Source: Runella sp.
GTDB lineage: Bacteria; Bacteroidota; Bacteroidia; Cytophagales; Spirosomataceae
Direction: 5' to 3'
DNA length: 34,686 nucleotides
Assembly (NCBI RefSeq): GCF_027484545.1
Contig: NZ_JAIXST010000315.1
Span: 1 to 34,686, forward strand
The notes under the pieces were generated by a model. The model was not told where the DNA came from. It did not search any database and worked only from the letters and a program-made list of their open reading frames with translations. How positions within the stretch are numbered: the first letter of the stretch is position 1; each line of letters begins with the position of its first letter. Of the stretch, positions 1,832 through 28,936 are shown piece by piece. The translations under genes were made by a program, and so were the position numbers.

Positions 1832-1846
1832 AGTTTATTCACAAAG

Positions 1847-8187: not shown

Positions 8188-9543
8188 ATGAATTCCCAAA
8201 ACTCCTTCAAAATCGTCATTTTAGGCGGAGGTGAAAGTGGCGTAGGTGCTGCGTTGCTGGCCCAAGCCAAAGGTTTTGATGTATTTCTTTCGGACAAAGG
8301 TGCGCTCTCCGAGGAATATCGTTCCATTCTTCACACTCACTCTATCCCATTTGAAGAAGGTCAACATACCGAAGAGAGAATTTTAGCCGCTGACGAAATC
8401 ATTAAAAGCCCCGGAATTCCTGATAAAGTACCCTTAATAAAAAAACTATGTGCGCAGGGCACCCCTATTATTTCCGAAATTGAATTTGCTTCCCGTTATA
8501 CAAAAGCCAAAAAGATAGCCATTACGGGAAGTAACGGCAAAACAACCACGACCTTACTTACCTATCATTTGCTGAAATCAGCAGGGATGAACGTTGGTTT
8601 AGCCGGTAACATCGGCGAGAGTTTTGCCAAACAAGTCATTGACGATACGTTTGATTGGTTCGTCCTGGAACAGAGCAGCTTTCAATTGGACAACATGTAC
8701 GACTTTAAAGCAGATGTGGGAGTTTTGCTGAATATCACCCCTGATCACTTAGACCGTTACGAATATACTTTTCAGAAATACGTCGATTCAAAGTTTCGGA
8801 TACTGCAAAATATGCAGCCTGACGACGATTTTATTTATTTTGTCGACAATGAAGCAATCGCTCAGGAGTTAAAAAAGAAATCATTCAATGTCAATCACTT
8901 ACCTATTTCTTTTTTAAAAAAAGAAATGAATGGTGGATTTTTTCACGACGGAGTATTGCATCTGACACGCCATCCTCGTACTTTTGATATAAGCGCAGAT
9001 GAATTACCAATCAAAGGTCCGCACAATGCCATAAATGCTATGGCGGCAACATTGGCCGCAATGGCTGTAGGGCTCACAGATGAACAGATAAAAACCGGAT
9101 TGTTGACTTTCCAAAACGCAGCCCATCGGCTGGAACCTGTCGAAAAAATCAACGGAATTCAGTTCATCAATGACTCAAAGGCAACTAATGTTGATTCAGT
9201 TTTTTACGCGCTTAACAGTTACGATACCCCAATCATTTGGATAGCCGGCGGGCTGGATAAAGGCAACGATTATACCCAAATCGAGTCTTTGGTTCGCCAA
9301 AAAGTGAAAGCCCTTATCTGTCTGGGCAAAGACAATAGCAAACTTCTCTCGTTTTTTACCCCTATCGTTCCCATTGTCATTGAGACACAGGACGTAAAGG
9401 AGGCAGTACAGCACGCATTGTCGTTAGGCCAACCTAACGATGTGGCGCTTCTATCTCCTGCCTGCGCCAGTTTCGACCTGTTCAAAAATTACGAAGATCG
9501 CGGAGATCAATTCAAAGCGACTGTCCGAAGTTTTGTACCTTAA
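8188..9543 (+). CDS. murD: UDP-N-acetylmuramoyl-L-alanine--D-glutamate ligase
   Basis: A 451-residue cytoplasmic Mur ligase that adds D-glutamate to UDP-MurNAc-L-Ala using ATP. The N-terminal Rossmann-like part opens KIVILGGGESGVGAALLA (8-25). The ATP-binding loop ITGSNGKTTTT is at 112-122. The central domain shows LLNITPDHLDRY, and the C-terminal domain INDSKATNVDSV and LSPACASFDLF, all typical of MurD. The length is normal. It is the first cell-wall gene of the cluster here, whereas most bacteria have mraY directly upstream. ftsW starts 12 bases after its stop. Confidence 0.97.
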   Translation: MNSQNSFKIVILGGGESGVGAALLAQAKGFDVFLSDKGALSEEYRSILHTHSIPFEEGQHTEERILAADEIIKSPGIPDKVPLIKKLCAQGTPIISEIEFASRYTKAKKIAITGSNGKTTTTLLTYHLLKSAGMNVGLAGNIGESFAKQVIDDTFDWFVLEQSSFQLDNMYDFKADVGVLLNITPDHLDRYEYTFQKYVDSKFRILQNMQPDDDFIYFVDNEAIAQELKKKSFNVNHLPISFLKKEMNGGFFHDGVLHLTRHPRTFDISADELPIKGPHNAINAMAATLAAMAVGLTDEQIKTGLLTFQNAAHRLEPVEKINGIQFINDSKATNVDSVFYALNSYDTPIIWIAGGLDKGNDYTQIESLVRQKVKALICLGKDNSKLLSFFTPIVPIVIETQDVKEAVQHALSLGQPNDVALLSPACASFDLFKNYEDRGDQFKATVRSFVP

Positions 9544-9555
9544 TTCCAAAAAACG

Positions 9556-10755
9556 ATGAATAATTCCGAGATGAATGCTTTTGACACCCCATCAGGCTAT
9601 CGCCCCCCTACTGACGGCTGGCAAACCGCTAAGGATTGGCTAAGCCAAAACTTAAAGGGCGATGTAGTCATTTGGATTATTGTAGCGATACTTTCGCTCA
9701 TCAGTATGCTCATTGTTTACAGTGCTACCGGTACGTTGGCCTACCAACGCGGAGGAGGTTACCCTGAAGTTTTTCTCTTTAAACACATTTTCTTTACCGG
9801 CATCGGATTATTTGTGATGTGGTGGGTACATCGCATCAACTATACCTATTTTTCGCGTTTATCGCGCGCTGCTTTGTTGATTTCCATTCCCTTACTGATT
9901 TTGGTAAAAGTTGCGGGAGTTACCATCAACGGTGCAACTCGTTGGTTGGCAATTCCCGGCACAGGTTTTACATTCCAACCCTCCGATTTTGCACGTTTAG
10001 CATTAATTGCCAATCTGGCTGCCATGCTTGCCAAACGGCAACGAATTGAGTATAGCTGGCAAATTTTCAATAAAATGATTCTATGGGTTGGGATTATCTG
10101 TTTTCTAATTGCCCTATCCAGTACTTCAACTGCCGTTTTACTCGGTTTTGCCTGTTTTTTAATGCTTTATGTCGGTCGTGTTCCTAAGAAGTACTTAATC
10201 GCCATGCTGATTTCCATTGGTTTGGCAGGAACATTAGGTTTGATTTTAGGCCAGAGATACGATACGGCAAAAAAACGAGTAGAGCGCTTTGTATACCGTG
10301 AAAATGATAAAACCAAGAAAGGTCTGGATCAATCTGATCAAGGATTTATTGCCATCGCCCATGGCGGAATTATTGGCCAAGGCCTTGGTAACAGCCACCA
10401 ACGAAACTACCTTACTCAAGCGTACTCCGACTTTATTTATGCCATTATTATTGAAGAATATGGCCTGATAGGAGGAGTTTTTATTGTGCTTTTATACGCC
10501 GTTTTATTGATGCGAGGTGTTCAAAATATTAATCAAACCAATCGAGCGTTTGGTGGCCTGCTATCTGCCGGTCTAACATTGAGCATTGGTTTGCAGGCAT
10601 TTACAAATATGGCAGTGGCGGTAGGTATTTTCCCAGTTACCGGCCAACCACTTCCTTTGCTCAGTATGGGTGGCACTTCCGTCTTATTTACGTGTATTTC
10701 ACTCGGTATTATTCTCAGCGTAAGCAGGGGAGAAGCTGATGAAAGTAATATTTAA
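9556..10755 (+). CDS. ftsW: Septal peptidoglycan polymerase FtsW (SEDS family)
   Basis: A 399-residue polytopic inner-membrane protein with about ten hydrophobic segments after a polar N-terminus of about 35 residues. SEDS landmarks include GATRWLAIPGTGFTFQPSDFARLA, DQSDQGFIAIAHGGIIGQGLGNS, DFIYAIIIEEYGLIGG and TGQPLPLLSMGGTSVLF. FtsW polymerises lipid II at the division septum with a class-B penicillin-binding protein. The location between murD and murG points to FtsW rather than RodA. An ATG five codons further in (9571) is an alternative start. Confidence 0.95.
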   Translation: MNNSEMNAFDTPSGYRPPTDGWQTAKDWLSQNLKGDVVIWIIVAILSLISMLIVYSATGTLAYQRGGGYPEVFLFKHIFFTGIGLFVMWWVHRINYTYFSRLSRAALLISIPLLILVKVAGVTINGATRWLAIPGTGFTFQPSDFARLALIANLAAMLAKRQRIEYSWQIFNKMILWVGIICFLIALSSTSTAVLLGFACFLMLYVGRVPKKYLIAMLISIGLAGTLGLILGQRYDTAKKRVERFVYRENDKTKKGLDQSDQGFIAIAHGGIIGQGLGNSHQRNYLTQAYSDFIYAIIIEEYGLIGGVFIVLLYAVLLMRGVQNINQTNRAFGGLLSAGLTLSIGLQAFTNMAVAVGIFPVTGQPLPLLSMGGTSVLFTCISLGIILSVSRGEADESNI

Positions 10756-10760
10756 TTAGT

Positions 10761-11852
10761 ATGAAAAAAATTATTATTAGCGGAGGGGGAACCGGAGGGC
10801 ATATTTACCCGGCCATTGCCATTGCCAATGCGCTCAAAGCCATTGATCCGACCATTCAGATTTTGTTTGTAGGGGCTTTGGGGAAAATGGAGATGGAAAA
10901 AGTACCGAGAGCGGGCTACGAAATCATTGGTTTACCCATTGCGGGCATAAAACGAGAGTTGTCAGTGGATAATATTTCGTTTCCGTTTAAACTTACGCGC
11001 AGTTTGCTAAAGGCTCGAAGTATTATTAAAAGTTTCAAACCTGACATCGCCATTGGAGTAGGTGGTTTTGCCAGCGGACCTTTGTTAATAATTGCCTCCC
11101 TTATGGGCATCCCGACGTTGATTCAGGAGCAAAATTCGTATGCGGGTGTTACCAATAAGCTTTTGGCAAAACGAGCCAAAGCCATTTGTGTAGCATACCC
11201 CAACATGGATGCTTTTTTTCCAAAAAGTAAACTTAAATTGACCGGAAACCCTGTTCGTAACGATATTTTGTCAGTATCCCACAAACGCGAACAGGCATAC
11301 GCACATTTTGGCCTGCAACCCAATCACAAAACACTGCTCATTATTGGTGGAAGTTTGGGTGCAAAAACAATCAATGAAAGCATTGAAGCAGGTTTAAAAA
11401 TGATTATTGATTCCAGTTATCAGGTACTGTGGCAAACCGGTAAACCTTATTTTGAACGCGCTAAAGCCGCAATCAGTGCACTTAAAACGCCTTATGCTCA
11501 AGCCTTTGATTTCATTTACGAAATGGATTTGGCCTATGCTTTGGCAGATGTTGTGGTTTCCAGAGCGGGTGCATTATCGGTTTCTGAACTTTGTTTAGTG
11601 GAAAAACCGGCAATTTTAGTACCTTTTCCCTATGCCTCTGAAGACCACCAAACTAAAAATGCCATGAGTTTGGTAGAACAAAATGCAGCTTTATTAGTAA
11701 AAGACAAAAACGCAGGAGAAGAATTGGTACAAACAGCCTTACGACTTCTGCAAGATGCTGATAAACAGCACGAATTGAGTAAAAATATTAAAAAATTAGC
11801 CAAACCAAATGCAGCGAAGGAAATTGCCGAAACGGTTTTGAAATTATGTTAA
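10761..11852 (+). CDS. murG: UDP-GlcNAc:lipid I N-acetylglucosaminyltransferase
   Basis: A 363-residue GT28 glycosyltransferase that converts lipid I to lipid II on the inner face of the membrane. The GGGTGGH loop is at 8-14 (ISGGGTGGHIYPAIA). The second Rossmann domain has LIIGGSLGAKTINES, the nucleotide-sugar site SRAGALSVSELCLVEKPAILVPFPYASEDHQTKNA lies in the C-terminal half, and the length is typical. It starts 5 bases after ftsW, and its last 7 bases overlap murC, consistent with coupled translation. Confidence 0.97.
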   Translation: MKKIIISGGGTGGHIYPAIAIANALKAIDPTIQILFVGALGKMEMEKVPRAGYEIIGLPIAGIKRELSVDNISFPFKLTRSLLKARSIIKSFKPDIAIGVGGFASGPLLIIASLMGIPTLIQEQNSYAGVTNKLLAKRAKAICVAYPNMDAFFPKSKLKLTGNPVRNDILSVSHKREQAYAHFGLQPNHKTLLIIGGSLGAKTINESIEAGLKMIIDSSYQVLWQTGKPYFERAKAAISALKTPYAQAFDFIYEMDLAYALADVVVSRAGALSVSELCLVEKPAILVPFPYASEDHQTKNAMSLVEQNAALLVKDKNAGEELVQTALRLLQDADKQHELSKNIKKLAKPNAAKEIAETVLKLC

Positions 11853-13225
11853 AACAATACAAATACATTTATTTCCTCGGCATCGGAGGCATCGGCATGA
11901 GTGCTTTGGCTCGTTGGTTCAAAATCAATGGTTTTGAAGTGGCCGGCTACGACCGTACTCCTACCGCTTTGACAGATACACTGCAAGAAGAAGGAATTTC
12001 GGTTCACTTTGAGGATTCTGTAGCAATGATACCTGCTGATTTTTTGCAAAATACGACTCAAACTCTTGTTGTATTAACGCCTGCTGTACCTGCCGACCAT
12101 TCAGAGTATAATTATCTCAAAGACAATGGATTTACCATTCAAAAACGTTCACAGGTATTGGGGTTGATTGCGGGAGGAATGTTTACAATTGGCATTGCTG
12201 GAACACATGGCAAAACCACAACATCGTCCATGACGGCGCATTTGTTACGTCATGCGGGTGTGAATTGTTCCGCATTTTTGGGGGGAATTACCCAAAATTA
12301 CGGAACTAATATGCTGCTTAATGAACCTGCGGATGATTTAAGCCAAGTTCCCTGTATAGTTGAAGCCGATGAATTTGATCGTTCTTTTCTAACCTTATTT
12401 CCTGAAATAGCCGTTGTGACATCCACTGATGCTGACCATTTAGACATTTATGGAAGTCATGCCTCTGTTCTGGACTCGTTTTCGGCTTACGTAAGCCAAA
12501 TCAAACCTAGCGGGCGGCTTTTTATGAGAACGGGGCTTGAATTAGCCGATAAAACTCGCGCTCAAGTAGCTGAATACTCTCTCAATGAAGGTGATTATCA
12601 CGCCGAAAATGTGCATATAGAAAATGCCTGTTTCATTTTTGACGCCGTACATCCCAATGGGAGAATCAACAATCTTACTTTACAGGTCCCCGGTTTTCAT
12701 AACGTAGAAAATGCGATTGCTGCCATTGCGGTTGGATTGGAAATAGGGCTTTCTGAAGAACAGATTCGGTCAGGTATCAATACGTTTGGAGGAGTGAAAC
12801 GGCGATTTGAATATTACCTTAAAACTGACTCAAAGGTTCTGATTGATGACTATGCCCACCATCCTGCGGAGGTTTCGGCATTTTTGTCATCGGCAAAAGC
12901 TTTATATCCGGATCGCCATGTAACGGCTATTTTTCAGCCCCATTTGTACAGTCGGACCCGTGATTTTTCGGAAGAGTTTGCCAAAAGTCTTTCTTTGGCA
13001 GACAGTGTAATTCTGTTGGATATTTATCCCGCCAGAGAGTTGCCGATTCAAGGGGTTACCTCTGATTTAATTTTTGACCGTATTACTTGTGACAAAGTCT
13101 TATGTAAGAAGTCGGAGTTAGTAGAGCTTATTAAAAATCGCTCCACTGACGTTGTCGCAACGATTGGCGCCGGTGATATTGATCGATACATTGAGCCTAT
13201 TAAAACAGTTTTGCAGTCTGTGTAG
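11846..13225 (+). CDS. murC: UDP-N-acetylmuramate--L-alanine ligase
   Basis: A 459-residue cytoplasmic Mur ligase that attaches L-alanine to UDP-MurNAc. It opens YIYFLGIGGIGMSALARWF (7-25), the MurC nucleotide-sugar signature. The ATP loop AGTHGKTTT is at 118-126, followed by VEADEFDRSFL, STDADHLDIYG, and the C-terminal DDYAHHPAEVSA and QPHLYSRT motifs. The length is normal. It overlaps murG by 7 bases and is followed after 27 bases by ftsQ. MurC lies after MurD and MurG, the usual order in this cluster. Confidence 0.97.
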   Translation: MLKQYKYIYFLGIGGIGMSALARWFKINGFEVAGYDRTPTALTDTLQEEGISVHFEDSVAMIPADFLQNTTQTLVVLTPAVPADHSEYNYLKDNGFTIQKRSQVLGLIAGGMFTIGIAGTHGKTTTSSMTAHLLRHAGVNCSAFLGGITQNYGTNMLLNEPADDLSQVPCIVEADEFDRSFLTLFPEIAVVTSTDADHLDIYGSHASVLDSFSAYVSQIKPSGRLFMRTGLELADKTRAQVAEYSLNEGDYHAENVHIENACFIFDAVHPNGRINNLTLQVPGFHNVENAIAAIAVGLEIGLSEEQIRSGINTFGGVKRRFEYYLKTDSKVLIDDYAHHPAEVSAFLSSAKALYPDRHVTAIFQPHLYSRTRDFSEEFAKSLSLADSVILLDIYPARELPIQGVTSDLIFDRITCDKVLCKKSELVELIKNRSTDVVATIGAGDIDRYIEPIKTVLQSV

Positions 13226-13252
13226 ATTTAGTTATACCAAATCAGTAATAAA

Positions 13253-14020
13253 ATGAAACGTTGGGTTTGGGGAGTTTTGGGGTGTTTCCTTGTAGGAACG
13301 ATTTTTTTATTCGTCGAAATGCAGCAAAAAAGCAAACGCTGCAAAGGCATTATTGTGAAATTAGACGAAACCGCAGAATATCCCTTCTTCACCGAACAAG
13401 ATATTGAAAATCTTCTTACCCTTAAAGGGGTAGACGCCGTTGTAGGCATGAGTTTTTCAAAAATCAACCTAAAAGGCCTCGAAAAAAGAGTATTAAAAAA
13501 CCGCTTGATAAATAAATGTGAAGTATTTCGAGATTTATCCGGAAATTTGGTTGTGTCTATTGATCAACAGCACCCTGTTGGAAGATTAATTCCTAACGCC
13601 ACTCTATCGAAAGAACAATCTCTTTCCGCCTCTCAGGGGGGATATTTGACTGAATCGGGTGAAATTGTGCCTTTATCAGCACGATTTGCCGCCAGAACAG
13701 TACTTATTTCGGGTGATTTTTTCGATAAAACACAGAATTTAAAAACGGTAAAAGGCCAACATTTAATAGTTTTTCTGAAAAACCTTCAACAAAACCCTTT
13801 CTGGAAAGCTCAAGTAGCCGAAGTAATCGTAGATAAGGATAGTGAACTGACTCTTGTGCCTCAGGTAGGACAGCATCAAATTGATTTTGGTTTACCAGAT
13901 GACATTGAAATAAAGTTTAAAAAACTAAAGATTTTTTACAAAACTATTTTACCGCTCAAAGGGTGGAATAAATACAAACGCGTAAGCGTAAAATTTAAGA
14001 ATCAAATAGTGTGTGAGTGA
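13253..14020 (+). CDS. ftsQ: Cell division protein FtsQ/DivIB
   Basis: A 255-residue bitopic membrane protein with a short cytoplasmic start, one membrane helix at about 4-21 (WVWGVLGCFLVGTIFLFV) and a periplasmic remainder. The first periplasmic stretch (IIVKLDETAEYPFFTEQDIENLLT) fits a POTRA-like domain. The following FtsQ region includes RVLKNRLINKCEVFRDLSGNLVVSIDQQHPVGRLI and ends with a KKLKIFYKTILPLKGWNKYKRVSVKF segment. FtsQ links early cytoplasmic and late periplasmic divisome parts. Sequence conservation in this family is low, so the position between murC and ftsA carries much of the evidence. Confidence 0.9.
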   Translation: MKRWVWGVLGCFLVGTIFLFVEMQQKSKRCKGIIVKLDETAEYPFFTEQDIENLLTLKGVDAVVGMSFSKINLKGLEKRVLKNRLINKCEVFRDLSGNLVVSIDQQHPVGRLIPNATLSKEQSLSASQGGYLTESGEIVPLSARFAARTVLISGDFFDKTQNLKTVKGQHLIVFLKNLQQNPFWKAQVAEVIVDKDSELTLVPQVGQHQIDFGLPDDIEIKFKKLKIFYKTILPLKGWNKYKRVSVKFKNQIVCE

Positions 14021-14089
14021 TTCATTATTAGGACAACTTATTTATAGATATTGTTTAACCATGCGCTGAACTTAAAGCTCTAACTCATC

Positions 14090-15454
14090 ATGTCAGAAAA
14101 TGAATTTTATTTAGGAATTGATATTGGTAGCACCAAGGTTGCTGCTGTTTTGGCAAAGCCAAAAAAACAGAATAATCTCATTATGCTCGAAATCTTGGGA
14201 ATAGGATCGGCTCGTAATGAGGGTGTACACAGAGGAAATATCAACAATCCTATCAAAACCAAGGAAGCCATTCGACAAGCGTTAGAAATGGCTGCAAAAA
14301 AAGCCGAAAGGACTGATTTGCTATCTATTTCACTTTCTGCCACTGTCAACGTCAGTGGTACACACTTGGAAACAACGTCTGAAACGGGTTCTGTAACCTG
14401 TAAATCAGCATCTGTAAAGGGTGAAGATGTCGGTTTTTTGTTTGAAAATATGCAACAAACGTTTGATTCAGATACCAATCAAATCATTCACTTATTGCCC
14501 CTTAGATTTGCAGTTGGAGAACAACACGAAATCGAAGATCCGGTTGGACATATCGGTCTGAAACTCAGCGGTGATTTTAAAATAGTTACAGCAAAGAAAT
14601 CTGCTTTGCATCAGATTCGTGACTCGTTGCAAAAAGCTAATATTCAAATTGATGAAGAAGACGGTTTTGCAGCTTCTCCTTTGGCTTCTGGATTGGCTGT
14701 TTTGTCTGAAGATCACAAAAAACTCGGGGTTGTTTTGGTTGATATTGGTGGTGGCACAACCGATATCGCCATTTATCACGAGGGTTTATTAAGACACACG
14801 ATTGTTCTTCCGTTTGGGGGGAGCCACATTACCAACGACATTAGAGAAGGGTGCCATCTGACAGTAGAAAGTGCCGAGGAAGCAAAAACCACGTTGAGTG
14901 AAACTGACCCTAACGCGTGCAGTTTAAATCAATTGTTGGTTGTACCTACTGCTGAAGGCATTCCACCCATTGAGATTGTAGCAAGAAATATCGTTTTGAT
15001 TGCCCGGGCACGTTTACGCGAAATTGCCGCTTTGGTATTAGCTGAAATCAAAAAAGCAGGTTTTGAACATAAACTACGTGCAGGAATCGTGCTGACAGGC
15101 GGAACGGCTAAAATCAACGGAATTGAGAATATTTTTCGGGAAGTAACGGGGATGTATGTTCAAATTGGCAAACCCAAGAACTTAGAGCGTACCAATGGCG
15201 CATTATATGATGCACTCATCAATGACCCTTCTTATACAACAGCATTAGGATTGGCTTGGTCGAGTGTAAAACCTCTGGATAAACGGGTTGTGAAAAGCCG
15301 TACCGTTCAGGAAATAGAAAGTAAGAAACCCAGCAGTAGCTGGAATTTCCCTGGTTTTGGTAAAAGTGTGAAAGATTTTAATATCAAAGAAATCGGTACT
15401 TTTATCTGGAAAGGGCTCACTCAAGATGATATCAAAGGGCAGGACAGCTATTAA
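14090..15454 (+). CDS. ftsA: Cell division protein FtsA
   Basis: A 454-residue actin-like ATPase that tethers FtsZ filaments to the membrane. Phosphate-1 motif YLGIDIGSTKVAAVLA is at 7-22, phosphate-2 motif VVLVDIGGGTTDIAIYHEG at 214-232, and the adenosine motif AGIVLTGGTAKINGIENIF is in the C-terminal third. The last 30 residues include IKEIGTFIWKGL, which could be the membrane-binding amphipathic helix. The protein is longer than Escherichia coli FtsA (about 420). The gap of 69 bases after ftsQ and 45 bases before ftsZ could hold an internal promoter, but I see no clear -7 element. Confidence 0.96.
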   Translation: MSENEFYLGIDIGSTKVAAVLAKPKKQNNLIMLEILGIGSARNEGVHRGNINNPIKTKEAIRQALEMAAKKAERTDLLSISLSATVNVSGTHLETTSETGSVTCKSASVKGEDVGFLFENMQQTFDSDTNQIIHLLPLRFAVGEQHEIEDPVGHIGLKLSGDFKIVTAKKSALHQIRDSLQKANIQIDEEDGFAASPLASGLAVLSEDHKKLGVVLVDIGGGTTDIAIYHEGLLRHTIVLPFGGSHITNDIREGCHLTVESAEEAKTTLSETDPNACSLNQLLVVPTAEGIPPIEIVARNIVLIARARLREIAALVLAEIKKAGFEHKLRAGIVLTGGTAKINGIENIFREVTGMYVQIGKPKNLERTNGALYDALINDPSYTTALGLAWSSVKPLDKRVVKSRTVQEIESKKPSSSWNFPGFGKSVKDFNIKEIGTFIWKGLTQDDIKGQDSY

Positions 15455-15499
15455 AAAAGATAAAAATATACCTACTTTATTGCTTATTTTTAAGAAATT

Positions 15500-17002
15500 A
15501 TGGTTTTTGCAAGAAAAAACGTTTTTGAGCACGACTACGAATTTGTTATGGAAGAGCCAAAACAATCGGAAGAAGCCCCTATTATCAAGGTAATCGGGGT
15601 AGGAGGAGGAGGTAGCAATGCCGTCAATCACATGTTTACAAAAGGCATCAAAGATGTCGTATTTGTGGTGTGTAACACTGACAAGCAGGCTCTGATGCGC
15701 AGCCCTATCCATAATAAAATTCAATTAGGGGCTGATACACTGAAGGGGCTTGGAGCAGGTACAGATTCTGCTACGGGTCGTAAAGCTGCTGAAGAAAGCA
15801 TTGAGTACATCCGACAATTGATGCAGCCGCCCACCCAAATGGTTTTCATTACGGCGGGTATGGGGGGAGGTACTGGTACGGGTGCAGCCCCTGTAATCGC
15901 TCAGGTGGCTAAAGAAATGGGTATGCTGACAGTAGCCGTTGTAACGGCTCCTTACAGCCATGAAGGTCGTATCAAAAAGAATCAGGCATTGGATGGTATT
16001 AATGCTCTTAAAGAGCACTGTGATACTGTTCTTGTCATTCTGAACGATGAATTGGCCAAGCTGTATGGGAAATTACCCATTTTGCGCGCTTATGAACACG
16101 CTGACAATGTACTTTCCAACGCTGTAAAAAGCATTGCAGAAATCATAACTGTCCATGGAAGCGTCAATTCAGACTTCATGGATGTGAAAAAAGTGCTTCA
16201 GGGTGCGGGCACATCGGTAATGAGTTCCGCGGTTGCTACTGGTGAAAATCGTGCTGAGTTGGCCATTGAAGCTGCACTTAACTCTCCATTGCTCAACAAC
16301 CGTGACATACGAGGAGCCGAACGAATTCTTATCACGCTGGCCTCCAGCAAAAATGAGAAATTTATGGCTACTCTGGACGAACAAATGGCGATTACCGATT
16401 ACATCGAAAGCTTGATTGGTGACGAAGCTGATATGTGTAAGGTAGGGGTCATCTTCGATGATGCTTTGGAAGAAGAACTGCTTGTAACTGTTATTGCGGC
16501 AGGTTTTGAAGATTCTCATCTACCCTTTAAATACGATTCTCTCGGGTCGAAAGCAGCCTCAAAAGCTCCCTTAGCTCCCCCTGTATCCGCAGACCCTAAA
16601 CCACCTGTGGTACAGCCTGTTCAAGATAACAATATAGAAATTCAAAAAGAAGAAACAACACCTACAACAGCCGTAACGCCGCCCTCACCTTCAGAGCCTG
16701 TCAATAAAGGCGGATACACTGTAGGAGTAAATTCAGTTCCCGAACCATCTAAAGATGATTTTTCTGAACCGGAAAAACCAAGTTCCGAATCGCCTGCCAA
16801 GCCAACGTTTCAGAACAAACCGGAGCCTCAGGAAGATCCTCAAATTTTGCGCCGATTAGTGCAGGATATTATCAATGGACGTTACTCCGCCAGTGAACTT
16901 GAAAAGCCTGCTTATTTGCGGCAGAATGTGACCTTACATCAAAAACCGAATTTACCCGAAGAAGCATTTATTCCAATTAAGTTGGATAAGCACAAGCGAT
17001 AA
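15500..17002 (+). CDS. ftsZ: Cell division GTPase FtsZ
   Basis: A 500-residue tubulin homologue that forms the Z-ring. The GTP-binding region begins IIKVIGVGGGGSNAVNHMF (28-46). The tubulin signature GGGTGTG is at 122-128 within FITAGMGGGTGTGAAP, and the T7-loop region follows HGSVNSDFMDVKKVL. The GTPase body ends near residue 335. It is followed by a long linker rich in proline, glutamate and serine (about 340-455). The C-terminal segment includes KPAYLRQNVTLHQKPNLPEEAFIPIKL, which may be the conserved tail that binds FtsA. M17 (MEEPKQSEE) is an alternative start. alkD begins one base after the stop. Confidence 0.97.
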   Translation: MVFARKNVFEHDYEFVMEEPKQSEEAPIIKVIGVGGGGSNAVNHMFTKGIKDVVFVVCNTDKQALMRSPIHNKIQLGADTLKGLGAGTDSATGRKAAEESIEYIRQLMQPPTQMVFITAGMGGGTGTGAAPVIAQVAKEMGMLTVAVVTAPYSHEGRIKKNQALDGINALKEHCDTVLVILNDELAKLYGKLPILRAYEHADNVLSNAVKSIAEIITVHGSVNSDFMDVKKVLQGAGTSVMSSAVATGENRAELAIEAALNSPLLNNRDIRGAERILITLASSKNEKFMATLDEQMAITDYIESLIGDEADMCKVGVIFDDALEEELLVTVIAAGFEDSHLPFKYDSLGSKAASKAPLAPPVSADPKPPVVQPVQDNNIEIQKEETTPTTAVTPPSPSEPVNKGGYTVGVNSVPEPSKDDFSEPEKPSSESPAKPTFQNKPEPQEDPQILRRLVQDIINGRYSASELEKPAYLRQNVTLHQKPNLPEEAFIPIKLDKHKR

Positions 17003-20349: not shown

Positions 20350-22212
20350 ATGTTTTCAAAATACGATGTAATTGTAGTAGGAGCAGGTCATGCCGGTTGC
20401 GAAGCAGCAGCAGCAGCAGCCAACATGGGCTCAAAAGTTTTGTTGGTCACAATGAATATGCAAACCATTGCACAGATGTCCTGTAATCCTGCAATGGGGG
20501 GGGTGGCAAAAGGACAAATCGTTCGGGAGATAGATGCTTTGGGGGGACAGTCAGGAATTATTAGTGATAAGACAATGATTCAATTCCGTATGCTCAATCG
20601 CTCAAAAGGTCCGGCTATGTGGTCACCACGATGCCAAAGTGACCGAATGCGTTTTGCAGAAGAATGGCGTCTGACATTGGAACAAACGCCCAATGTTGAT
20701 TTTTGGCAAGACACTGCCCGCGAGGTTATTGTAAAAGACGGCCGTGTAATCGGCATAAAAACAACTCTCGGATTAGAAATTTTAGGTAATTCAGTAGTAC
20801 TTACCAATGGTACATTTCTAAATGGCCTCATTCATATTGGCGAAAAAAACTTCGGCGGAGGAAGGGTAGGGGAGAGGGCTGCTACAGGAATTACCGAGCA
20901 ATTGATTACACTTGGGTTTGAATCAGGGCGAATGAAAACAGGAACGCCTCCTCGTGTTGATGGGCGTTCACTCGATTACACTCGGATGGAAGAACAACCC
21001 GGCGACGAAAATCCTAGCCAATTTTCATATACAGACACGCCTAAATTAACCAATCAAAGATGCTGTTGGATTACCTACACCAATGAGGCTGTTCATGCAG
21101 TTTTGAGAACAGGGTTTGACAGATCTCCAATGTTTACAGGAAGAATTAAAGGATTAGGTCCACGCTACTGTCCTTCCGTTGAAGATAAAATCAACCGATT
21201 TGCAGACAAAGACAGTCACCAAATTTTTGTCGAGCCAGAAGGATGGAATACTGTTGAAATGTACATTAACGGCTTTTCCACTTCATTACCTGAAGACATA
21301 CAATACAAAGCGATTCGTCTTATACCTGGTTTTGAAAACGCAAAAATATTCCGCCCAGGATATGCTATTGAATATGATTATTTTCCGCCTACTCAATTAA
21401 AATTAACACTTGAAACCCATCTCATAAAAAATCTATTTTTTGCGGGGCAAATCAACGGAACTACGGGTTACGAAGAAGCGGCCTGTCAAGGGTTAGTTGC
21501 TGGAATAAATGCGCATCAAAATGCGCATGAGTTAGACGCATTTGTATTGAAGCGTTCAGAAGCATACATAGGAGTATTGGTAGATGATTTAGTAAATAAA
21601 GGGACCGAAGAACCGTATCGAATGTTTACCTCTCGCGCAGAGTATCGCACACTACTCCGCCAAGATAATGCCGATATTCGATTAACAGCATTAGGTCATA
21701 AAATTGGATTGGCTAATGATGCACGGTTAGAACGCGTACAAAAAAAAATTGCAAATACCGAAGCAATATTGGAAGAGTTGCGAAAAGTAAAAGTTTTACC
21801 TGAAGAAGTAAATGGACTGCTTTCAGAAATAGGGACCTCAACGATTAGAGAAAAACAACCGTTGTTTCAACTACTCAAGCGTCCCGACATTGAAATAGAA
21901 GATATCAAAAAACTGAATCCTGCTTTTGCAGAGTTCTTAAATCGCTTCGACGAAGAATCGGCAGAGCAAGCAATGATTAAGATCAAGTACGAAAGCTATA
22001 TTGAAAAGGAACGGCTCATGGTCGAAAAAATGAGCAAACTGGAAGACCTCGAAATCATAACTAATTTTGACTATGATCGTGTCTCTGCTTTGTCTTTTGA
22101 AGGACGGCAGAAACTAAAAAAATTACGACCTCAAACGTTAGGTCAGGCTTCTCGCATAAGTGGCGTAAGCCCATCAGATGTTTCCGTGCTTCTAATTTAT
22201 TTAGGAAGGTAG
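20350..22212 (+). CDS. mnmG: tRNA uridine-5-carboxymethylaminomethyl modification enzyme MnmG (GidA)
   Basis: A 620-residue FAD enzyme that, with MnmE, modifies the wobble uridine of several tRNAs. The FAD dinucleotide-binding motif VIVVGAGHAGCEAA is at 7-20, followed by MSCNPAMGGVAKGQIVREIDALGG, PRCQSDRMRFAEEWR, GTPPRVDGRSLDY, GRIKGLGPRYCPSVEDKI, and FFAGQINGTTGYEEAACQGLVAGINA. The C-terminal tRNA-binding part includes FTSRAEYRTLLRQDNADIRLT. The length is full. It is a classical neighbour of oriC (its old name gidA comes from this), and here it lies between a parS-like site and the DnaA-box array. A strong terminator follows. Confidence 0.98.
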   Translation: MFSKYDVIVVGAGHAGCEAAAAAANMGSKVLLVTMNMQTIAQMSCNPAMGGVAKGQIVREIDALGGQSGIISDKTMIQFRMLNRSKGPAMWSPRCQSDRMRFAEEWRLTLEQTPNVDFWQDTAREVIVKDGRVIGIKTTLGLEILGNSVVLTNGTFLNGLIHIGEKNFGGGRVGERAATGITEQLITLGFESGRMKTGTPPRVDGRSLDYTRMEEQPGDENPSQFSYTDTPKLTNQRCCWITYTNEAVHAVLRTGFDRSPMFTGRIKGLGPRYCPSVEDKINRFADKDSHQIFVEPEGWNTVEMYINGFSTSLPEDIQYKAIRLIPGFENAKIFRPGYAIEYDYFPPTQLKLTLETHLIKNLFFAGQINGTTGYEEAACQGLVAGINAHQNAHELDAFVLKRSEAYIGVLVDDLVNKGTEEPYRMFTSRAEYRTLLRQDNADIRLTALGHKIGLANDARLERVQKKIANTEAILEELRKVKVLPEEVNGLLSEIGTSTIREKQPLFQLLKRPDIEIEDIKKLNPAFAEFLNRFDEESAEQAMIKIKYESYIEKERLMVEKMSKLEDLEIITNFDYDRVSALSFEGRQKLKKLRPQTLGQASRISGVSPSDVSVLLIYLGR

Positions 22213-22999: not shown

Positions 23000-23029
23000 A
23001 GAGGCTTAATCAAAGCCTCTTTTATTTTT
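23000..23029 (+). terminator. Intrinsic terminator after the metallopeptidase-like gene
   Basis: AGAGGCTT (23000-23007) and AAGCCTCT (23013-23020) pair around a 5-base loop and are followed by TTTATTTTT. It starts 26 bases after the stop codon. The tail is the same as in the terminator after mnmG. Confidence 0.8.
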
Positions 23030-23030
23030 G
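23023..23030 (+). promoter_or_regulatory. TAnnTTTG -7 element before the Ig-like lipoprotein gene
   Basis: TATTTTTG is an exact -7 match at the end of the preceding terminator. A TTTG lies at 22995-22998, 24 bases upstream, slightly farther than usual. Transcription would start near 23037, about 27 bases before the ATG at 23064. Confidence 0.4.
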
Positions 23031-23063
23031 TTAAAAATCCAGAAAACTATAGTTGCTTTCAGC

Positions 23064-24713
23064 ATGATAAAATCAATAAGAGTTCTTTTTTATTTCGGCC
23101 TATTGCCGGTATTCTATTGCTTAATATTAGTTAGCTGTTCACAGCCCATTTCACCTACGGGAGGTAAGCGTGATACTATTCCCCCTAAGCTTGTAAAAAG
23201 TACACCTGCCAACAAACAGACAAACTACAAAGGAAAGACCGTTGATTTGGAATTTGACGAATACGTGGTAGCAGAAAATTTGCAACAAAAGCTCCTCATT
23301 ACGCCCGATGCCGGCGAGTATGATTCTAAGATTAGACCTAATGGGCTTCGTCTTACATTCAGAAAATCGCTAGATTCTGCCAAGACTTATTCTCTTTCTT
23401 TTGGAGATGCCATCAAAGACTTTAGTGAGAAAAATCCTGCACAAAATCTCCGGGTTGTTTTTAGCACAGGCATGTATATAGACTCTGCATTGGTGAAAGG
23501 TGAGGTGAAAGACTTGCTAACCAATAAGCCTTTATTGGATGTGTTAGTCGGAATGTATCCAAACTCAGACACGCTTAATATCGAAAAAATGAAACCCAGT
23601 TACTTTACTCGTTCCGATAGTTCAGGGCGATTCAGCATTGAGAATATAAAATCCAACACCTATCAACTCGTGGCATTTGATGATAAAAATCGCTCTTTGA
23701 CGTACAATCCGAAGGCCGAGAGAATAGCCTATTTAAGAGATAGTATGGTTTTAAAGGATTCTACGCAAGTCTCAGGCGTTTTATTAAAGGTGTTCATGGC
23801 CAATAATACCCTCGCAAAAGTGCGAAATACGACTCCCAGGGCCTATTATTACTCTGTTAATTATGACAAAGGATTTGTGGACTACAAAGTGAAATTTGAT
23901 AACCCCGAAGATTCAATTCCCCACTTTCAGGCTGGGACAAATGAATTGCGATTTTACAATACTAAAAACCGAAAGGATACGCTGATAACAAAAATAATGA
24001 TTAGAGATTCCATTGGCTTGACCTTTGAACACACTCAAAAAATCAAATTTCGGGAAATAAGAACAGGGAGTAAGAACGCCGATTCAAACCGTGACCCGTT
24101 TGAAATGAAGACTAATTTTCAGCCAAATGATGAGATAGAGCCTCGCCTGTTTACATTAAAATTAACATTTACAAAGCCCTTAGCCGAGGCTCGACTCAAT
24201 CAAATACAACTATTTAGTGATAGTACTAAAGTCGAGAAAGTACAGCCTTCTGACTTTATTTGGGATAACAATAAGACGATACTATCGCTTTCACGCCCCA
24301 TTGCTGCTCAACGTCAACTAAAAATAATTCTTCCAAAATCTACTTTTTTCAGTGTTGAAAACGACACAATCCCCGAACGGATTTATAAACTGCCAATTAT
24401 GGAAGAAGATAACTACAGCACATTGGAAGGAGAAATCCGCGGTGCTAAAGGTAAATTCATCATCGAATTGTTGGATGATAAGTTTGAGGTTGTCAAATCC
24501 ATTGCTAACAAAACTTCCTATCAATTTAATTATCTTAAACCTTCGACGTATTCTGTACGAGTTATTGTAGATGCAAATAATAATGGTCGTTGGGATACGG
24601 GTGATTTCAAGACTAAGCGATTAGCTGAACCTATCGTTTTTTATCCTGATCCCATTAAAGTGAAGAAGAATTTTGTGATGAGTGTCGCAGATATAGACTT
24701 ATCCACAAAATAA
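23064..24713 (+). CDS. SbsA Ig-like domain lipoprotein
   Basis: A 549-residue envelope lipoprotein. Residues 1-24 are a type II signal peptide, and the lipobox LVSC places the lipidated cysteine at C25. The mature protein starts CSQPISPTGGKRDTIPPKLVKSTPANKQTNYKG, the typical opening of Bacteroidota proteins with an SbsA-type Ig-like domain (about 40-140, with VDLEFDEYVVAENL and RPNGLRLTF). Further beta-rich regions follow, including DLLTNKPLLDVLVGMYPNSDT and YSVRVIVDANNNGRWDTGDF near the end. The molecular role is unknown, but surface or periplasmic location is likely. The frame can extend upstream to a TTG at 23028, which would overlap the promoter element, so the ATG is preferred. Its last codons contain an exact DnaA box of the origin. 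Confidence 0.8.
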   Translation: MIKSIRVLFYFGLLPVFYCLILVSCSQPISPTGGKRDTIPPKLVKSTPANKQTNYKGKTVDLEFDEYVVAENLQQKLLITPDAGEYDSKIRPNGLRLTFRKSLDSAKTYSLSFGDAIKDFSEKNPAQNLRVVFSTGMYIDSALVKGEVKDLLTNKPLLDVLVGMYPNSDTLNIEKMKPSYFTRSDSSGRFSIENIKSNTYQLVAFDDKNRSLTYNPKAERIAYLRDSMVLKDSTQVSGVLLKVFMANNTLAKVRNTTPRAYYYSVNYDKGFVDYKVKFDNPEDSIPHFQAGTNELRFYNTKNRKDTLITKIMIRDSIGLTFEHTQKIKFREIRTGSKNADSNRDPFEMKTNFQPNDEIEPRLFTLKLTFTKPLAEARLNQIQLFSDSTKVEKVQPSDFIWDNNKTILSLSRPIAAQRQLKIILPKSTFFSVENDTIPERIYKLPIMEEDNYSTLEGEIRGAKGKFIIELLDDKFEVVKSIANKTSYQFNYLKPSTYSVRVIVDANNNGRWDTGDFKTKRLAEPIVFYPDPIKVKKNFVMSVADIDLSTK

Positions 24714-24743
24714 TTCACAATTCACATCCACTGTGGATAAGTT

Positions 24744-24767
24744 AATGCGCTAAACAGCGCATTTTTT
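24744..24767 (+). terminator. Terminator after the Ig-like lipoprotein gene, inside oriC
   Basis: AATGCGC (24744-24750) and GCGCATT (24757-24763) enclose TAAACA and run into six T. It lies 30 bases after the lipoprotein stop, between the second and third exact DnaA boxes, so it would keep transcription out of the rest of the origin. Confidence 0.75.
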
Positions 24768-24901
24768 GTAAATACCAAAATGAGCTTAGGTAGCTTTTGC
24801 ATTGTGAAACGCGTTTTTCACAAAACGTAACTTTCTGAGGAAAAAATGTGTACAACTTTGTGGATAACTTGGTTTATGTGGGCAAATAAGTGGATAACTA
24901 T

Positions 24902-24978
24902 CAGGATAACTTGTAGATAACACAAATCGAATGTGTATAAAAAGATATGCACATTCGATTTGTGGGTATGTTATCCTG
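24902..24978. repeat. Nested inverted repeat in the middle of oriC
   Basis: The inner arms CACAAATCGAATGTG (24921-24935) and CACATTCGATTTGTG (24950-24964) are a perfect 15-bp inverted repeat around a 14-base loop. Outside them, CAGGATAAC (24902-24910) and GTTATCCTG (24970-24978) form a second perfect pair of 9 bp. No T tract follows, so it is not a terminator. The outer arms contain DnaA-box-like GGATAA/TTATCC cores. Confidence 0.85.
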
Positions 24979-25063
24979 TTGTACACAATGTTTCAAGGCA
25001 TTTTGCACAGTGTTTTATGTGGAAAACAAATAATCCACAACGTTGATAAAGCTATCCACAATC

Positions 25064-25084
25064 CACAATTAATTGTGCACAATT
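25064..25084. repeat. Two overlapping 14-base palindromes in oriC
   Basis: CACAATTAATTGTG (25064-25077) and AATTGTGCACAATT (25071-25084) are each perfect palindromes and share seven bases. They lie between the DnaA-box matches at 25052 and 25116, directly after a run of ATCCACA repeats. Confidence 0.7.
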
Positions 25085-25225
25085 GTATATATGATTGAAA
25101 AACAGTAATTTCAGTTGTGGATAAAAATAAAATTTGGTGGATAACCTTATAATTTATTCACAATTACGTTTTAGAAGAAAGTGGATAAGTCGTTTATAAC
25201 TTATTTATCCACTTATCCACGGAGG

Positions 25226-25271
25226 TAATAACTCTTAATAGTTTTAAATATTAATATTATTTGTTTTTATA
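25226..25271. other. AT-rich candidate DNA-unwinding element of oriC
   Basis: Only four of these 46 bases are G or C. The segment directly follows the last two overlapping DnaA boxes (25205-25221) and lies immediately before the TPR gene, the typical place for duplex opening. It must also serve as the leader of the TPR gene, though I see no convincing promoter in it. Confidence 0.55.
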
Positions 25272-27110
25272 ATGGGTGCAGGAAAAATGTGTATAACTCT
25301 AAAACGTGGGTGGATACTCAGCGTAGGGTTACTTATTGTTTTGATGTGTGCAACCGGTTATGCACAAAGTGATGCTGACTTAGCTGATGCCTACTTTCAA
25401 AAAGGAGAATGCGATAAAGTCGTTTCATTGTATCAAAAAGTGCTGCGAAAGGATTTTAATAAAATCTATTTGCGGCGTTACATAAGCTGCGTGATAAAAC
25501 TGAAAGAGTTTGAAGACGCCGAAAAATTTTTGAAACGTCAGCAAAAGGCAGACGCAAACTTTGGCTATTTGTACACCTTGTATTGGGGACGCATGTTAGA
25601 ACAAACAGGCCAAGCCGATGCAGCTGCCCTAAAGTATGAAGAAAGTATTGCACAGGTATCCTCCAAGGATTTGAATGCGTACAAAGAATTATCAGATGAA
25701 TTTAGAGAAATAGACAATTCAGAAGCGGCGATTAAGTCTATCCTGAAAGCACGTGATGCTGCGGGGAATGAGAATTTATTTAAAATGGAGTTGGCTGGTC
25801 TGTATGCGCAAACCGGAAAGACGGACCAAATGATTGAGGAATTATTGAGTCTGGGAGTAGCTATTCAGAGCAAAGAGGTGATTCAAAATTACTTTCAGGA
25901 CTTTTTACGTGAAGAGAAAGACCAAGTCAAGTTTGAGAAAATTTTGTACGAAAAAATCCAAAGACAACCCAACGAGCCTTTCTACGCTGAAATGCTGATT
26001 TGGTTTTTGACACAAAAAAAACAGTTTGGAAAAGCGTTTATTCAGGAAAGAGCGTTAGACCGACGATTTAAATACAACGGTACAAAAGTATTTGATTTGG
26101 GTAATCTGGCACTTCAAAACAAAGATTACAACGCCGCTATTCAATCATTTGAATACATTATCAAAGATTATCCACAGGGACAGCTTTACCCCTACTCGCG
26201 CCGAATGGTGATTGTGGCAAGGGAAGAGCAAGTAAAAAATACATTTCCGGTGGAACAAGTATCTGTCAGGAGGCTAATTCAAGACTATAGAAAACTGTTA
26301 GAAGAGCTGGGACAAAATAATCGGACACTCGAAGCTATGCGCAGTATGGCGAATCTGTATGCGTTTTATCTGAATGAGAAAGATACCGCTACAATTGTGT
26401 TGCAGGATGCAATCAAAATCGGACGTGCTGAAAGTGATTTTATAGATAAGTGCAAACTGGATTTAGGCGATATTTATCTTTTGAAAAACGAACCGTGGGA
26501 ATCTACCCTGTTGTATTCACAGGTAGAAAAGTCGCAACGAGAAACCCCGCTTGGATATGAAGCCAAGTTGCGCAATGCTCGGCAGTATTACTACACAGGT
26601 GATTTTGAGTTGGCAAAAGCATTACTTGATATTTTAAAAATGGCTACAACTCGTGAAATTGCCAACGACGCTGGAGCATTAAGTTTATTAATACAGGATA
26701 ATACGGGTTTAGATACCTCAGAAGACGCGATGAAGGAATATGCGTCAATTGATCTGTTACTTTATCAAAATCAAACTGAGCTAGCTTTAGGACGCTTAGA
26801 TGACCTATTTAAAAAGTACAAAGATCACCCATTGTCGGATGAAATACTATGGCTCAAAGCTCGGACCTATGCCAAAATGGGAGAAAACCAAAAAGCAGTA
26901 GATAACTTACAGGTAATTGTGGATAAGTTTTCGACAGATATTTTAGCGGATGACGCTTTGTATATGATGGCCGAATTGTACCAAAATCGCTTCAAAGACA
27001 AAGAAAAATCAATGGAATTATATCAAAAAATTCTGGAAAAATACCCGGCCAGCATTCATTCAGCAGATGCACGTAAACGGTTTAGACAATTGAGAGGAGA
27101 TAACCTTTAA
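25272..27110 (+). CDS. Exported tetratricopeptide-repeat protein
   Basis: A 612-residue protein with a signal peptide (about 10-31, ending CATGYAQ) and a mature part built from helical repeats of TPR type. Clear units include DADLADAYFQKGECDKVVSLYQKVLRKDF near 33-61, TKVFDLGNLALQNKDYNAAIQSFEYIIKDYP, and near the C-terminus DEILWLKARTYAKMGENQKAVDNLQVIVDKFSTDILADDALYMMAELYQNRFKDKEKSMELYQKILEKYP. Such proteins act as periplasmic scaffolds. The partner is unknown. M6 is an alternative start that gives the same signal peptide. Its coding sequence has two further exact DnaA boxes (26168-26176 and 26918-26926). The next gene follows after 27 bases, probably in the same transcript. Confidence 0.8.
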   Translation: MGAGKMCITLKRGWILSVGLLIVLMCATGYAQSDADLADAYFQKGECDKVVSLYQKVLRKDFNKIYLRRYISCVIKLKEFEDAEKFLKRQQKADANFGYLYTLYWGRMLEQTGQADAAALKYEESIAQVSSKDLNAYKELSDEFREIDNSEAAIKSILKARDAAGNENLFKMELAGLYAQTGKTDQMIEELLSLGVAIQSKEVIQNYFQDFLREEKDQVKFEKILYEKIQRQPNEPFYAEMLIWFLTQKKQFGKAFIQERALDRRFKYNGTKVFDLGNLALQNKDYNAAIQSFEYIIKDYPQGQLYPYSRRMVIVAREEQVKNTFPVEQVSVRRLIQDYRKLLEELGQNNRTLEAMRSMANLYAFYLNEKDTATIVLQDAIKIGRAESDFIDKCKLDLGDIYLLKNEPWESTLLYSQVEKSQRETPLGYEAKLRNARQYYYTGDFELAKALLDILKMATTREIANDAGALSLLIQDNTGLDTSEDAMKEYASIDLLLYQNQTELALGRLDDLFKKYKDHPLSDEILWLKARTYAKMGENQKAVDNLQVIVDKFSTDILADDALYMMAELYQNRFKDKEKSMELYQKILEKYPASIHSADARKRFRQLRGDNL

Positions 27111-27721: not shown

Positions 27722-28936
27722 CTAACGCAGTTTCAACGTTACTAAAGTTGCAATGGCTAAAATGATTCCAACAATCCAAAAACGGGTTACAATCTTAGCT
27801 TCGTGGTAACCCTTCTTCTGAAAATGATGGTGTAAAGGAGACATTAAGAAGATACGGCGACCCTCTCCAAATTTGCGTTTTGTATATTTGAAATAGCTCA
27901 CCTGCATAATAACAGATAGAAGTTCGGCCAGAAAAATTCCGCACATGACAGGAATCAGTAATTCTTTACGAATGGCCAATGAAATAACAGCGATAACCCC
28001 ACCGAGCATTAAACTGCCCGTATCCCCCATAAACACCTGCGCCGGATACGAATTATACCATAGAAACCCAACACAAGCCCCGACAAAAGCGGCAATGAAA
28101 ATTACCATTTCGCCTGAATTAGGAATGTACATGATGTTGAGGTATTGCGAAAATTTGGCATTTCCTGAGATATACGCCAGTACACCTAAAGTTAGAGCAA
28201 TGATAACTGATGTTCCTGCTGCTAAACCATCAATTCCGTCTGTGATATTTGCACCATTAGATACGGCCGTAATAATGAAAATAGCTACAGCTGTGTAAAT
28301 TATCCAAGTATAACTGTCGGGTAATAACGCAAATAAAAGATTTGAATAATCAAATTCGTTGTTTTTTATGAATGGTAAGGTCGTAATGGTTGGATTAATA
28401 ACATCACTGTAACGTTGTACTTCACCAATAGCCGAACTAATGAGTGGTTTATCGTAAACTCGAATTTTTACGTGCTGGTTGAAAGAAAGAGTGATTCCAA
28501 CAATAAGCCCTAAACCTACCTGCCCAACTACTTTAAATTTCCCTTCCAAGCCATCTTTATTATTCTTGAATTTTTTGATGTAATCATCTATAAAGCCAAT
28601 CAAGCCTGTCCAAACTGCGGTAATCAGTAGTAAGACAATATACACATTGGAAAGTTTGGCGAATAACAAAACAGGGATAAGAAGTGAAGCCAAAATAATG
28701 AACCCTCCCATAGTAGGTGTTCCCTTTTTTTCCATTTGGCCTTGCAAACCTAAATCACGGATGGTTTCACCGATTTGCTGCTTCCGTAAGAAGTCAATAA
28801 TGCGTCGGCCAAATATAGCTGCAATTAGCAGGGATGAAACTGTGGCACCCAGTGCGCGAAAAGAAATGTACTGAAAAACTCCAGCTCCCGGGAAGTTAAA
28901 TTCTTTATCTAAGTACGAGAAAAGATAGTAAAGCAT
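27722..28936 (-). CDS. mraY: Phospho-N-acetylmuramoyl-pentapeptide-transferase
   Basis: A 404-residue polytopic membrane enzyme that transfers phospho-MurNAc-pentapeptide to undecaprenyl phosphate, making lipid I, the substrate of MurG. Landmarks are [13 protein letters not shown] (69-81), the acidic pair D117-D118 in [49 protein letters not shown], and [24 protein letters not shown] loop of about 45 residues between membrane segments ([23 protein letters not shown]) makes it longer than the Escherichia coli enzyme (360), as usual for Bacteroidota. It normally lies between murE and murD. Here it stands alone on the opposite strand, about 18 kb from murD. Confidence 0.97.

Follow-up and report, generated by a model that had tools for sequence, protein, structure and literature searches.

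Does a dense array of DnaA boxes, found in a Runella species between a gene for an Ig-like protein and a gene for a TPR protein, mark the place where replication of the main chromosome starts? The window analyzed here, i.e. the whole stretch of DNA of 34,686 bases, is contig C233 of a 7.12-Mb draft genome consisting of 354 contigs. An origin had been proposed at 24699..25271 in the initial annotation, based on about 14 box matches, four of them exact, in roughly 520 bases. These limits proved correct: the first box overlaps the end of the Ig-like gene, the stop codon of which ends at 24713, and 25271 is the last base before the ATG of the TPR gene. The four exact TTATCCACA boxes and the distribution over both strands were also found again, but the number of boxes had been set too low, as the array contains 23 matches with at most one mismatch to TTATNCACA. 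Six of them are exact, including the four TTATCCACA boxes; the matches at 25073 and 25074 represent the two strands of one palindromic place. Further exact TTATNCACA matches are located at 25288 and 25358, just within the TPR gene. The features of the locus are listed in Table 1.

Table 1. Features of the DnaA-box array and its surroundings; positions refer to the window, and rows are those of the 14-row alignment described in the text.
Feature	Position	Strand	Remarks
mnmG	20350..22212	+	Pfam PF01134, E 2.3e-163; 2.5 kb from array, 3' end facing the proposed origin
Ig-like gene with Big_5 domain, left neighbour	23028..24713	+	Pfam PF13205, E 4.7e-16
DnaA-box array (almost certainly oriC proper)	24699..25221	both	23 boxes with at most one mismatch to TTATNCACA
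Exact DnaA box TTATCCACA	24699..24707	+	Overlaps last codons of Ig-like gene; kept in 13 of 14 rows
Exact DnaA box TTATCCACA	24732..24740	-	Kept in all rows, 12 of them with exact TTWTNCACA
Exact DnaA box TTATCCACA	24859..24867	-	Exact TTWTNCACA in 14 of 14 rows
Exact DnaA box TTATCCACA	25116..25124	-	Kept in all rows, 13 of them with exact TTWTNCACA
DnaA box TTATTCACA	25154..25162	+	Exact TTWTNCACA in 14 of 14 rows
Tandem DnaA-box pair TTATCCACT, TTATCCACG	25205..25221	+	One base shared; directed at AT-rich edge
Probable duplex unwinding element	25222..25271		Short GC stretch, then AT-rich stretch with TAATA..TAATAG
TPR protein gene, right neighbour	25272..27110	+	Pfam TPR families; orthologues in relatives

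The clustering of DnaA boxes is well above chance. The whole window harbors 73 TTATNCACA matches with at most one mismatch, whereas 100 shuffles averaged 41.95 matches and reached 60 at most. The densest 500 bp contain 23 sites (TTWTNCACA, at most one mismatch), a density for which 40 Markov simulations of this locus gave no value above 8. In its own genome, TTATNCACA occurs at 271 places and exact TTATCCACA 89 times, all of which were listed; four of the latter fall within 426 bp in the array, and none of the 89 forms a second pair at a distance of up to 600 bp on one contig. A second, denser cluster, named initially as evidence that would speak against the origin, was therefore absent among the exact boxes of this genome. 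It was also absent from the parts of three relatives that were scanned (0.52 Mb of G010 and 0.52 Mb of G009, both of the same genus, and 0.4 Mb of G016, of the same family), where no other cluster exceeded 8 sites per 500 bp; at the origin, 21 (G010) and 23 (G009) sites per 500 bp were counted with one mismatch allowed. Exact TTATCCACA was found 97 times in G009, with five copies in 428 bp at the origin and the next group, three copies in 232 bp, about 23 kb away. A pattern of three TCCAC gave 20 matches in the own genome, none of them in the array, as two TCCAC there are separated by 2 bases and the pattern required a gap of at least 3. Rfam at gathering score revealed no RNA element and ARAGORN no tRNA in the window.

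Additionally, the own genome and two relatives share a small tandem pair of DnaA boxes at a distance of about 23-24 kb from the origin (window 1835-1855; G009:C1 4250782-4250802; G010:C1 5872318-5872338). By eye, the gene at whose end the pair is located resembles a dihydroorotase gene; the pair is perhaps a DnaA-controlled promoter or a titration site.

Conservation of the boxes was analyzed in an alignment of 14 rows comprising the own window, 12 genomes of the same genus and one of another genus of the family. Allowing one mismatch to TTWTNCACA, 26 boxes were identified in the own sequence of 24650-25340; 24 of them are kept in at least 7 of the 14 rows, the own row included. Thirteen are kept in all rows, 12 of these in the array and one just inside the TPR gene. 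Of the tandem pair, TTATCCACT is retained in 12 rows and TTATCCACG in 7 when one mismatch is allowed. By eye, comparable head-to-tail pairs were recognized in many of another 41 loci, two of which (L136 and L154) gave no anchor box, and related arrangements recur in numerous other genera. The array also contains an inverted repeat at 24921-24964 with 19-nt arms, 95% complementary and separated by 6 nt, with two boxes in dyad arrangement. This repeat was rejected as a conserved origin element, as it is not apparent in the other 13 rows.

An AT-rich edge, as described initially, was confirmed next to the boxes: AT content is 0.72 at 25211-25250 and 0.78 at 25251-25290, a stretch which adjoins the tandem pair and has a putative unwinding role. 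The segment 25091-25170 within the array is equally AT-rich (0.75-0.78). The tandem boxes at 25205-25221 face the presumed unwinding region, and TAATAGTTT in the AT-rich stretch is kept in all 14 rows; we infer that strands are unwound at 25222-25271. A TAA..AATA/AACAA spacing characterizes 24 of 36 loci, as compared to 5.7 expected; the pattern was chosen after viewing the data, and the rows are related. The rule for DnaA-trios was drawn from PMC8287927; the own sequence passes its permissive form with a run of 5, and 22 of the 36 loci pass as compared to 18.4 expected in shuffles. Runs of at least three are thus hardly commoner than in shuffles, and DnaA-trios were rejected as a discriminator. 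The arrangement of a tandem pair, a short GC stretch and an AT-rich edge follows the same order as the basal unwinding system of Bacillus subtilis, as outlined in PMC8287927 and PMC10316083; unlike in B. subtilis, the trio repeat of Runella is weak by the count given above.

The genomic setting described initially, between an Ig-like and a TPR gene with mnmG 2.5 kb away, was borne out by the Pfam matches to Big_5 and TPR and by the end of mnmG at 22212. By eye, the N-terminus of the Ig-like protein resembles a lipoprotein signal. The contig also encodes ybeY and mraY. An mraY-like gene lies across the origin at 27722-28936, and a run resembling murD-ftsW-murG-murC-ftsQ-ftsA-ftsZ, identified by eye at 8188-17002 of the window, is transcribed towards the origin, i.e. 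against the presumed fork.

Likewise, dnaA is absent from the window, as had been noted. The genome encodes DnaA from a single dnaA copy on another contig, C310, with one Bac_DnaA_C match (E 2.9e-31), and at most 2 sites per 500 bp were counted in the 3.2 kb examined around this gene. In eight relatives, dnaA and the cluster are separated by 1.2-2.9 Mb when the large contig is taken as a circle (about 2.0 Mb in G003, 1.97 in G009, 2.9 in G010, 1.7 in G013, 1.8 in G015, 1.3 in G016, 1.2 in G033 and 2.8 in G040); the cluster of G033 is weak, with 8 sites as compared to a Markov maximum of 6. In the large contigs G003:C4, G013:C6 and G033:C1, the dnaA C-terminal domain is encoded no more than about 1.3 kb from the start, and the cluster is located about 2.0, 1.7 and 1.2 Mb away, respectively. 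Since these contigs start near dnaA and the cluster lies 1.2-2.0 Mb away, base 1 of the three records is not likely to be the origin. An origin not next to dnaA had been described initially; this is no surprise, as the Prevotella intermedia paper (PMC4755523), citing DoriC, already states that oriC is commonly far from dnaA in Bacteroidetes. Like the Runella array, the predicted oriC of P. intermedia OMA14 and other Bacteroidetes origins in DoriC combine DnaA boxes and a skew transition at a great distance from dnaA (PMC4755523).

The TPR gene was used as a landmark to locate the origin in relatives. Both place and sequence are kept within the genus and the family, Spirosomataceae: the array was found upstream of the TPR gene in all 12 genomes of the same genus. 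Of 19 genomes testable outside the genus but within the family, 18 had an array exceeding their own Markov maximum; the exception is G031, whose 8 sites equal this maximum. Among the other families of the order, the array was detected at the TPR gene in 7 of 17 genomes examined, six of them with at least 10 sites, and was not found at this place in 10 of the 17. In the family, these counts leave out G024, G026 and G019 (L030), the last of which lacks upstream sequence; in the order, they leave out G046, G048 and G054. No TPR match was obtained for G021, G035, G043 and G057. Named loci overlap with the genome set and were therefore kept out of the counts. Among named records, Persicobacter carries the array with 12 and Thermonema with 22 sites; in L073 (Thermonema rossianum), from 4432, 20 mismatch-free TTWTNCACA were seen in the 500 bases upstream of the TPR gene.

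In all 11 loci from Rufibacter, Adhaeribacter and Sabulibacter (L056-L060, L062-L064, L066-L068) the TPR gene is kept and the array is absent; a search of the 5 kb preceding their TPR genes revealed neither mnmG nor the Big_5 gene. For a link between keeping mnmG/Ig upstream and keeping the array, a comparison of 20 loci gave 8 of 13 as compared to 1 of 7 (Fisher p 0.07), which is only suggestive. In L065, L140 and L141 the gene order is partly or wholly kept, and repeats resembling TTGAATAA or TTGAACAA by eye replace TTATCCACA; this change possibly reflects drift of the DnaA box. We regard it as conceivable, if somewhat doubtful, that the gap between mnmG/Big_5 and TPR is an old, fixed oriC address of the Cytophagales in which the box sequence drifts, and that the Rufibacter group has lost this address. 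If true, the order would provide a natural series for the co-evolution of DnaA and its box at a constant site.

Furthermore, mnmG was screened class-wide. A match was obtained in 56 genomes of the same class and other orders, one of them of only 22 residues, and 40 regions were examined. Five clusters exceeded the cut-off (8, 9, 9, 10 and 12 sites; 10 Markov runs each) and 35 regions were without one. A class-wide link between origin and mnmG is thus unsupported with E. coli-type boxes. A scan of viral contigs for mnmG gave one short match.

GC skew was sampled in three relatives with chromosome-sized contigs, because the own genome consists of unordered contigs. In each of them, 20-kb stretches were taken on either side of the site, twenty in total and at approximately corresponding distances. 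In G010, 9 of 10 samples were positive on one side and 9 of 10 negative on the other, with the outermost sample at 3.4 Mb; the corresponding values were 9 of 10 and 10 of 10 for G009 (3.2 Mb) and 8 of 10 and 10 of 10 for G016 (3.3 Mb). GC skew flips its sign at the orthologous site in all three relatives, and the sign is mostly held to near the antipode when the contigs are taken as circles. A skew minimum at this place had been suggested initially as a check. The sign flip bears this out, but over 200 kb the raw cumulative minimum was displaced from the array towards mnmG, by 20.5 kb in G009 and by 14.9 kb in G010. This displacement of 15-20 kb is attributed to the one-sided gene orientation on the mnmG side, where about 20 kb contain 0 coding bases on the plus and 18123 on the minus strand in G009, and 807 and 18750, respectively, in G010. 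A correction using third positions or noncoding bases was applied after the raw offset had been seen; measured from a point in the array, it placed the minimum over 200 kb at +346 bp (G009) and -265 bp (G010) for third positions and at +266 bp (G009) and +209 bp (G010) for noncoding bases, i.e. within 350 bp.

The own window is consistent with such a switch in strand composition. Its third-position cumulative minimum is at 24464; the skew of 15 of 21 genes to the left of the array is negative (five positive, one zero) and that of all six genes to the right is positive. In G045, an order-level genome sampled at three places a side, no sign change was seen at the TPR-linked place.

Three other explanations of the array were considered. 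DnaA boxes are also contained in sites of the datA/DARS type, so the array might serve titration or reactivation of DnaA, with the origin elsewhere. DnaA sites do exist outside the origin, as illustrated by the small tandem pair described above for the own genome and its relatives G009 and G010. However, 23 boxes in about 520 bp next to an AT-rich edge argue against this explanation, as does the finding that exact boxes form no further close pair in the own genome and that no other cluster exceeds 8 sites per 500 bp in the scanned stretches of G009, G010 and G016. Moreover, datA/DARS sites are expected away from the skew switch, whereas the skew flips its sign at this very site; hence, we consider a titration or reactivation site highly improbable. 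The chance that the boxes constitute a DnaA-controlled promoter region of the TPR gene appears just as slim. The array abuts the start codon of this gene and the boxes at 25288 and 25358 lie inside it, yet neither the size of the array nor the skew is accounted for by a promoter, and the TPR gene occurs without the array in all 11 Rufibacter, Adhaeribacter and Sabulibacter loci. Both roles, promoter and origin, may be true together.

An origin of a plasmid or chromid, or a misassembled contig, might be considered because the genome is available as a draft and additional contigs occur in relatives. The presence of mnmG, ybeY and mraY on the contig argues against this explanation, as does the location of the orthologous site on a contig of 5.4-7.4 Mb in six relatives (L011, L013, L016, L027, L034, L039); the likelihood of this third explanation is negligible. 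Box density, conservation and the skew switch in relatives support the original reading, and the array is almost certainly the DnaA-dependent oriC of the main chromosome of a Runella species.

In Escherichia coli, oriC is likewise not adjacent to dnaA. The oriC of E. coli MG1655 (NC_000913.3 3925744-3925975) shares with Runella the TTATCCACA boxes and the neighbour mnmG. Its outermost box is aimed at an AT-rich region with CTAATAA..AATAG beyond, the counterpart of TAATA..TAATAG in Runella. In contrast to the 232 bp annotated between the mnmG 5' end and mioC in E. coli, the Runella array comprises about 520 bp, lies between the Big_5 and TPR genes and is located 2.5 kb past the mnmG stop codon.

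From this arrangement, a course of initiation can be proposed. DnaA produced from the distant dnaA gene would bind to the array, and the tandem pair at 25205-25221 would steer a DnaA oligomer into the adjoining AT-rich region 25222-25271. Strands would open there, followed by helicase loading, and two forks would depart, one via the TPR gene and the other via the Ig-like gene and mnmG.

The Runella site is an oriC of the ordinary type with a nearly family-wide address, and its kind is already known. Cytophaga hutchinsonii is a member of the same order as Runella. The initial statement that few origins have been experimentally mapped in the phylum needs correction, as PMC5288383 reports a replicative plasmid for C. 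hutchinsonii together with derivatives listed with 'oriC' in use. Our results pin down where the site lies in Runella and show that nearly the whole family shares this address and that part of the order lacks it. Ideas on how bacterial origins work are unchanged by this finding. Via the TPR landmark, a candidate origin is now available in 30 of 31 testable genomes of the family, and a localised origin in Runella permits the construction of oriC plasmids, marker-frequency work and the correct rotation of genome records.
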